This document shows positions 9,936 through 11,478 of a stretch of DNA of 64,000 nucleotides, piece after piece. Position numbers and translations under genes: made by a program. The notes under the pieces are model-generated. The model ran no database searches. It was not told where the DNA came from and worked only from the letters and a program-made list of their open reading frames with translations. How positions within the stretch are numbered: the first letter of the stretch is position 1; each line of letters starts with the position of its first letter. This DNA comes from Spirochaetae bacterium HGW-Spirochaetae-3 (GTDB lineage Bacteria; Spirochaetota; Spirochaetia; Treponematales; UBA12059), in NCBI GenBank assembly GCA_002839315.1, contig PGXV01000006.1, forward strand, positions 249,176 through 313,175. The letters run 5' to 3'.

Positions 9936-9967
9936 CCGGAAGGGGCGGCCCGCCCGCCCCCTCGCGC

Positions 9968-9996
9968 TTGACATTTTCCTGCGTATCAGGTAATTT
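9968..9996 (+). promoter_or_regulatory. Promoter of tRNA-Asn
   Basis: TTGACA (9968-9973), a 17-bp spacer and TAATTT (9991-9996) place the start site about 15 bases before the tRNA. This is a strong sigma-70 promoter, as expected for a stable RNA. Confidence 0.75.
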
Positions 9997-10018
9997 TGCC
10001 TCGCTTCTTACGGAGCAT

Positions 10019-10091
10019 TCCCCTGTAGCTCAGCTGGCAGAGCAAGTGGCTGTTAACCACTGGGTCCGTGGTTCAAATCCGCGCGGGGGAG
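10019..10091 (+). tRNA. tRNA-Asn (anticodon GTT)
   Basis: A complete cloverleaf can be folded by eye. The acceptor stem is 10019-10025 with 10084-10090 (one G-U pair), the D-stem GCTC/GAGC at 10028-10043, the anticodon stem AGTGG/CCACT at 10045-10061 with loop CTGTTAA and anticodon GTT at 10052-10054. The variable loop is 5 nt, and the T-stem is CGTGG/CCGCG with loop TTCAAAT. The discriminator is G at 10091, and the 3' CCA is not encoded. A -35/-10 promoter and a rho-independent terminator flank it, so it is a single-gene unit. Confidence 0.95.
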
Positions 10092-10100
10092 CATTTTTTG

Positions 10101-10140
10101 GCGCCAGATGACGTTACCCGTCATCTGGCGCTTTTTTTTT
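10101..10140 (+). terminator. Rho-independent terminator of tRNA-Asn
   Basis: A perfect 12-bp stem (10101-10112 with 10120-10131) with a 7-base loop followed by nine T residues. This is the strongest intrinsic terminator in the window. Confidence 0.93.
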
Positions 10141-10300
10141 GTTGCGCGGATTTGAACCGGAAGGGCCGCCGAGCGATAGCGAGGAAGAGCGCGCAGGATG
10201 CGCGCGGAAGGCCCTGGAGGCGGCCCGGAAAGGCGAGACACGATGTCGAGCCTTGTAGGGCAAATCCGCGCGGGTGCAATCCGAGCAGTGCGCAGGATTG

Positions 10301-10349
10301 CAGGGGTGAGAACGATGGTACTCCATCGTTCGAGGGGGTATCCCCCTTT
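10301..10349 (+). repeat. Hairpin repeat, copy 1
   Basis: The unit begins CAGGGGTGAG, forms an 8-bp stem (10311-10318 with 10323-10330, loop TACT), then CGA, then a 5-bp GGGGG/CCCCC stem with loop TAT and TTT. Its twin lies at 10378-10426. The flanks are identical but the first stem differs in sequence while keeping its pairing. Confidence 0.8.
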
Positions 10350-10377
10350 CCTTACAATCGCGAGACTCGTAGCGGCG

Positions 10378-10426
10378 CAGGGGTGAGACCGGCGGTACCC
10401 TGCCGGTCGAGGGGGTATCCCCCTTT
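10378..10426 (+). repeat. Hairpin repeat, copy 2
   Basis: Same layout as copy 1: CAGGGGTGAG, an 8-bp stem (10388-10395 with 10400-10407, loop TACC), CGA, a GGGGG/CCCCC stem and TTT. Relative to copy 1, three stem pairs change on both sides and one G-C becomes G-U, so pairing is preserved. This points to selection on structure or to a family of hairpin elements. Confidence 0.8.
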
Positions 10427-10567
10427 ACTATGAGCACCTTCGGGACGGCCTTTTCTTTTGCCATACCCCCCCGCGCGGATTTGAACCGAGCGCCGTCGCG
10501 ACCAAAGGAAGCGGAAGCCAAATCCGCGCCGTTTCATCGTCCTGCCGGGCAACGTAGCTTGTTCCCT

Positions 10568-11478
10568 CTACTGGTATGCAAGACTAGCTAAATCATTATC
10601 TGCCGCGGCTAGAATCCGTCTGCCCTCGGTAAGCATGATTTCTGAAAAACGCTCGAGCAATGCGGATGGCCGACTCCATCGATACCAGAAGAGCGGCGTA
10701 TCGAGCCTGCTCCGCGGATCGAGCTCCATGAGCCTTCCTGATTCTATCTCAGGCGACGCTTGTACTTGCGGCATCATTGCATAGCCCAGACCGCGTCGCA
10801 CCGCTTGGGCGAGTTTCTCCGCGGAGGGGATATAATGTGCTGGCGGGGAGACTTGAGGCATCCCGAAGGCCTGGGATAGCGCGCGGTATTGAAGCTGGTC
10901 GTCGCGGTTGAAATGAATGATGGGCGCCTTTGCCGCGGAGACTCGATCAAAGCCGTTAGGGAACCATCGTCGGGAAAAATCCGGCGAGGCGACCATCACG
11001 TACCGCATCAAGCCGATTTTCGTCGAGGTGAAGCCCTGAACGCTGAGCTTTTCAGAGGCGATGCATCCGGCAACGGTTCCGGCTCTCAGGGACCCGATGG
11101 TTTTTTCCTGATCGGCGACGAATATCTCGAGCGTAATCCTGTTCTCGAGGAGAAACGGAGAGACGGCGTCGAGAAACCATACTGAAAGCGAGTCGGCGTT
11201 CACGGTGATAGGAATCCTGCGGAATTCGGCCTCCTCGCTCATGCCAAGGTCGTTGAAGGCCTCTTCCTCCAGCTCTGCCACCTGACGGTAGTGGCGGAGG
11301 AGTCGTTCCCCCGCGGCGGTAGCTCGCGGCGGATCAGGATTCGGCCGATTTCTTCCTCCAGCGTGCGTATCCGTTGAGATACCGCTGATTGGGTGATGCC
11401 CACTCGTGAGGCTGCGCGGTCGAAACCGCCTTCGTCAAGAACAGCAGCGAAGGCTTCGAGCAATCTGTAATCGATCAT
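10568..11478 (-). pseudogene. ArgP/IciA-type LysR regulator, frameshifted
   Basis: Two overlapping minus-strand frames make one LysR protein. The first (11478 down to about 11310) holds the N-terminal helix-turn-helix: D-Y-R-L-L-E-A-F, then R-A-A-S-R-V-G-I-T-Q-S-A-V-S-Q-R-I and L-E-E-E-I-G-R. The second (about 11325 to 10568) holds A-T-A-A-G-E-R-L-L-R and the complete effector-binding domain. The break is at 11312-11323, where one 12-base stretch reads E-L-P-P-R in the first frame and A-T-A-A-G in the second. Intact homologues need both in sequence, so a tandem near-repeat seems to have collapsed. ArgP regulates amino-acid exporters, which suits the divergent EamA exporter. A sequencing error is possible but would have to be a 13-base loss. 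Confidence 0.8.

Follow-up and report, generated by a model that had tools for sequence, protein, structure and literature searches.

The two hairpin repeats lying 3' of a tRNA-Asn gene in the stretch of DNA analysed here (64,000 nucleotides, referred to as the window, in a spirochaete genome of 3.88 Mb) are not free-standing and belong to a 390-bp pile-up of structured cassettes, namely a hairpin cassette (H1-H2-H3) and a larger, far more widespread element named E. We consider it fairly probable that both cassettes are small non-autonomous mobile elements that reside at the 3' ends of genes and are handled as folded single strands. The evidence in hand consists of a family of copies, covariation within it, copies of gene ends, and one orthologous site found empty in one genome and filled in another. 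The DNA from tRNA-Asn and its terminator to about position 10530 is non-coding, and its folding gave a z-score of -6.5 against shuffled sequences (Table 1). The hairpin cassettes occupy the former left-arm position of an older tRNA-Asn terminator. The next gene, on the minus strand at 10568-11281, resembles the C-terminal part of a LysR-type regulator.

Table 1. Features of the tRNA-Asn locus in window coordinates, and loci of other elements near tRNA genes
Feature	Position or locus	Strand	Remark
tRNA-Asn(GTT)	10019..10092	+	host gene of the cassettes; ARAGORN; Rfam RF00005
X	10070..10092	+	tRNA 3' end from T-arm GGTTCAAATCC on, copied downstream
T	10100..10132	+	intrinsic terminator of the tRNA
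Cassette E	10144..10274	+	X'-P2-hairpins-X; conserved structured element
X'	10144..10158	-	inverted copy of tRNA 3' end, ends ...GAACC; left strand of E outer helix
Direct X copy	10261..10274	+	CAAATCCGCGCGGG, starts CAAATCC; right strand of E outer helix
H1a	10275..10302	+	hairpin TGCAATC-CGAGCAGTGCGCAG-GATTGCA; hairpin cassette copy 1
H2, copy 1	10310..10331	+	variable 9-bp stem, loop TACT
H3, copy 1	10332..10349	+	constant GGGGGTATCCCCC hairpin
H1b motif	10361..10372	+	CGAGACTCGTAG; copy 2, stem reduced to 3 bp
H2, copy 2	10387..10408	+	variable 9-bp stem, loop TACC
H3, copy 2	10409..10426	+	constant hairpin
Right arm of older tRNA-Asn terminator	10442..10465	+	whole in relative G007 (L096)
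Second inverted tRNA 3'-end copy	10468..10487	-	20 nt
Short remnant of older E	10488..10518	+	related to E remnant in G002
Direct X copy	10519..10529	+	closes older E remnant
Integrase-like genes behind tRNAs	L063 (own C15:21000-22400), L093 (own C5:180030-181600), L099, L120, L127, L155		
Third recurrent module	L064, L071, L100, L105, L107, L125, L128, L003		

The hairpin repeats are two tandem 49-nt copies (10301-10349 and 10378-10426) that lie 77 bp apart with 83% identity over 53 nt; in each, the variable hairpin H2 is followed by the constant hairpin H3, with flanks common to both. The H2 stems, AACGATGG/CCATCGTT with the loop TACT and ACCGGCGG/CTGCCGGT with the loop TACC, differ by two-sided changes at three pairs (A-T to C-G, A-T to G-C and T-A to C-G) and by one G-C to G-U change, and a flanking G-C makes the stem 9 bp long. 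The 8-bp stem with these changes, the common flanks and both loops had been given in a preliminary description of this DNA, and all were confirmed. The unit is larger than outlined there, as it takes in the upstream H1, complete in copy 1 (10275-10302) and present only as a remnant in copy 2, and it belongs to a pile-up linked to a tRNA; the tRNA context and the copies of the tRNA end were likewise absent from that description. Since the 19-nt constant part occurs twice against 0.04 occurrences expected, and the full hairpin pattern was found again in related genomes, the repeats are not a product of chance.

When 11 H2 copies from the own genome and from G002, G003, G004, G006 and G008 were compared, 80 of 80 cells were paired, against 78% with the strands swapped; up to four pair types were seen at a position with every pair kept, and no copy breaks the stem. 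The five copies of equal length carry four two-sided pair changes, a number reached by 3 of 500 shuffles. Stems measure 8-11 bp across copies and loops mostly 4. The H2 repeats are a real structured family under selection for structure, as had been supposed from the first two copies. The covariance-model search proposed at that time detected the hairpin cassette in 8 of 39 related genomes from three genera of one family, and the expectation of a dispersed structured family was borne out by further copies in the own genome and in relatives. The fullest form, of about 105 bp, is found repeatedly in G007 and has H1a and inverted H1b ends about 90 bp apart. Seven full-length cassettes of G007 (L232, L239, L244, L248, L250, L252 and L268) are enclosed by an inverted repeat CACAGAGACACAGAG...CTCTGTGTCTCTGTG, as though they had entered a dispersed palindrome, and additional hairpins of the type GAGGGGGTAGCG-AGAAGCG...CGACCTTCG-AGCGAGGGGG were noticed near hairpin cassettes at L009, L031 and L249. 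The broad pattern GGGTGAG...CGAGGGGG gave chance matches beyond the family and was set aside. The search of viral contigs with the hairpin pattern returned 0 matches.

The genomic sites of the hairpin cassette are 3' ends of genes of several kinds. It was found 3' of tRNA-Val in G002 and of tmRNA in G006, and 3' of an E copy at tRNA-Leu in G000, G004 and G016. It was also found at the stop codon of a gene that we take to be sucD-like and within the 3' ends of presumably asnS-like and radical-SAM-like genes, all three identities coming from our reading of the sequence only. The asnS 3' end is duplicated directly around the cassette in G000 and G004 (26 bp exact in the latter) and in a diverged form in G008, and the cassette at the radical-SAM gene of G004 is likewise flanked on either side by the 3' end of that gene. 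At these duplicated ends the upstream gene is whole and the broken end lies beyond the cassette, a pattern that would fit insertion with long target duplication.

Cassette E is about 130 nt long, and its body between X' and X is conserved and strongly covarying. With a model built from seven copies, 22 of the 23 family genomes were found to carry E, at 5-17 copies each (9 in the own genome among the matches listed), and a sample of 296 genomes from across the phylum gave 44 carriers. In 72 distinct sequences, 623 two-sided changed cells were counted against 196 in shuffles and 88% of cells were paired against 63%, figures that lean towards the model because the alignment (A8) was fitted to it; an independent MAFFT alignment of the seven copies gave the same picture. 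In the 72 sequences covariation extends over all six helices, the outer helix is 91% paired, and sliding the partners abolishes pairing. A pseudoknot P3 suggested by 7 sequences failed on 67 (36 paired against 35.2 expected by shuffling) and was rejected.

E is located in the T-loop of genes for tRNA or tmRNA, and a tRNA or tmRNA lies immediately upstream in nearly all loci examined. Three copies apparently lacking a tRNA (own C8, G012 and G350) were all found to adjoin tRNA 3' fragments, likely left by integrated islands. A plasmid search gave no match, and the E pattern had 9 matches in viral contigs, one of them a weak half-E at a contig end. A viral-collection contig with phage-tail-like genes (L216, 1-82) ends inside a half E and is perhaps a prophage beside a tRNA. 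Behind the tRNA genes for Ala-CGC, Leu-GAG, Val, Pro and Met, tyrosine-integrase-like genes were seen 3' instead of E (Table 1); because a 3' fragment of tRNA-Ala-CGC together with its E is present on contig C8 (L283), an island has probably split that locus. Another recurrent module, the third, consists of a hairpin with the sequence CACTACAATACnnTTCCrCTCGGC after it and often adjoins tRNA-end copies.

In the outer helix of E, the 3' end of the host tRNA itself, cut in the T-loop, is present as one inverted and one direct copy. Of the 95 tRNA genes in loci of the own genome and the genus, 31 are followed within 130 nt by an exact inverted copy of at least 10 nt of their own 3' end, and the controls gave 0 of 95 for the own 5' end and 36 of 1900 (1.9%) for the 3' ends of other tRNAs. 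The copies also follow local sequence: the form of tRNA-Val is CAGGTTCAAATCCTG in G000 and G002 and GGGGTTCAAATCCCTC in G005 and G006; the X' copies of G002, G005 and G006 each agree with the local form, and the same holds for tRNA-Met and tRNA-Asn. G002 and the window both have an older E remnant at the same place of their tRNA-Asn loci, following a homologous terminator arm, yet each remnant matches its own tRNA. The X and X' copies are either renewed or kept alike by palindrome-correcting replication or gene conversion. Larger arrangements were found as well, including a 79-bp X-T-X' palindrome on either side of E (L119), tandem units (L115, L185 and L206) and a 189-bp tandem array 3' of tRNA-Pro in G296. 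The orthologous tRNA-Gly-CCC locus, followed by the same downstream gene, carries E in G000 and has neither E nor X' in G002, a comparison of one locus in which G002 could have lost the element. The direct gene-end repeats, the tandem units and this empty site would agree with insertion accompanied by long target duplication.

In the mechanism that we propose, insertion of the cassettes into the 3' end of a gene would duplicate a long stretch of the target and leave the gene whole: as the cassette sits between copies of the gene's 3' end, the gene would stay intact with a broken copy downstream. The folds are most likely conserved because a mobile intermediate is recognised as folded RNA or single-stranded DNA by an enzyme acting in trans; both the single-strand mobility and this enzyme are what we infer. 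X' may arise when a new strand copies X and the terminator hairpin, folds back, copies X again and joins E. Several observations weigh against such mobility. Ordinary recombination could have produced the tandem arrays and some of the duplications, X and X' could stay alike through template switching at palindromes with the element itself inactive, copy numbers are low, the empty and filled states were compared at one locus with possible loss, and alignment A8 leans towards the structure of its model. No mobilising protein was found and no element carries a gene.

A more daring and only tentatively held view is that E represents a new class of tRNA-homing structured element, which would copy the T-arm and 3' end of each gene it enters into its outermost helix and would have spread across the phylum without encoding a protein. 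With the copy inverted on one side and direct on the other, one RNA or single-stranded DNA fold would be re-addressed for each host gene. Mobile DNA enters bacterial genomes most often at the 3' ends of tRNA genes, sites normally used by integrase-bearing elements; a gene-free structured cassette that is found there phylum-wide, adopts the host tRNA sequence and builds tandem arrays would put these sites to a new use. Thanks to the covariation, the fold and hence a partner interacting with it can be tested directly, and complete chromosomes are available for several carriers.

A different and rather unlikely explanation of both cassettes would be that they are small RNAs of the host or regulatory RNAs at 3' ends, for example protein-binding sponges with GGA loops of the CsrA-bound type, the hairpin cassettes serving to stabilise or end transcripts. 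The strong covariation is what such RNAs would show, both hairpins of E have conserved GGA loops (CAGGAUG/AUGGAU), the E units are located between terminators, and CsrB appeared as a sub-threshold Rfam match; but that match (RF00018, in L206) scored 17.4 bits against a cut-off of 71, and Rfam 15 at gathering score assigned the cassettes to no family, with only tRNA and tmRNA matched. Furthermore, no sigma-70-like promoter was found in window 9950-10580, the presence of E at a given tRNA differs between close relatives, and an outer helix copied from the target is needless for host regulation.

That the cassettes are REP/REPIN elements mobilised by RAYT, a Y1 transposase, seems improbable to us, even though the full hairpin cassette is an inverted doublet, gene 3' ends are its location, the own genome has a RAYT-like gene and insertion of REPs into palindromes has been described (PMC3733652). 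The Y1_Tnp domain (PF01797) is absent from G004 with 8 H1a motifs, from G016 with 14 E copies and from G031 with 7 E copies, and none of the RAYT genes found adjoins a hairpin cassette, unlike the partner gene of REPINs, which is flanked by the repeats. The lone E match beside a RAYT gene belongs to tRNA-Gly-CCC. In the own genome the RAYT-like Y1 transposase gene (G000:C14:122766-123101) lies just upstream of tRNA-Gly-CCC, and in G002 it adjoins the same tRNA. The H2 hairpin has the stem (8-9 bp) and loop (4-5) of the CGTC type of REP, and the H1a/H1b copies of G007, but not those of the window, form two inverted units in one long hairpin as in a REPIN. Of the REP tags, GTAG or CGTC at one foot of the hairpin, neither occurs next to H2 on either strand; on the minus strand CCTC, a listed variant of the CGTC tag (PMC3733652), directly precedes the 9-bp stem, leaving the CGTC tag doubtful. 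The REP-like mobile hairpin of the preliminary description agrees with the behaviour, hairpins at gene 3' ends between duplicated ends, but the tags are unclear and RAYT is missing from copy-rich genomes. Least probable of all is that palindrome-prone DNA at tRNA terminators has duplicated and snapped back during replication without any dedicated element, which would suit the long palindromes of X, T and X', the match of T and X' to the local tRNA and the tandem arrays and may still account for the X/X' matching, but is contradicted for the cassette bodies by the same covarying E at different tRNAs across a phylum and by the recurrence of the hairpin cassette at unrelated genes.

Among known systems, REP/REPIN elements come nearest to these cassettes in behaviour, yet their defining features are not found together here. 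REPs are short palindromes repeated at the 3' ends of genes; their stems show compensatory changes, and some of them form inverted doublets or lie inside palindromes (PMC3116915, PMC3733652). The cassettes share the palindromic repeats, the compensatory changes and the location, and differ in the copy-rich genomes without RAYT, in the long duplications of gene 3' ends, and in E being a 130-nt multi-helix element tied to tRNAs. Duplications of gene ends of such length are, to our knowledge, no feature of REPs. With tRNA-integrating islands and prophages the cassettes have in common the use of the T-loop and 3' end and a direct 3'-end duplication that keeps the tRNA whole, but at about 130-400 bp they carry no integrase or any other gene (the units read, ~130-190 bp, are too short for a tyrosine integrase gene), E adds an inverted tRNA-end copy, and the same cassette is found at many tRNAs. 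Like MITEs they are short, non-coding and dispersed with target duplications, though these span about 25-80 bp instead of a short fixed length and no parent transposon was found. The GGA-loop hairpins of E resemble those of CsrB/RsmZ sponge RNAs, but E is far below the Rfam cut-off and the sponge RNAs are not linked to tRNAs. A literature search found no description of the hairpin cassette or of E, and both are classed as small structured mobile repeats new to Rfam and to the literature searched, among which E, specific to tRNAs and with an outer helix derived from its target, could be the part that is categorically new.
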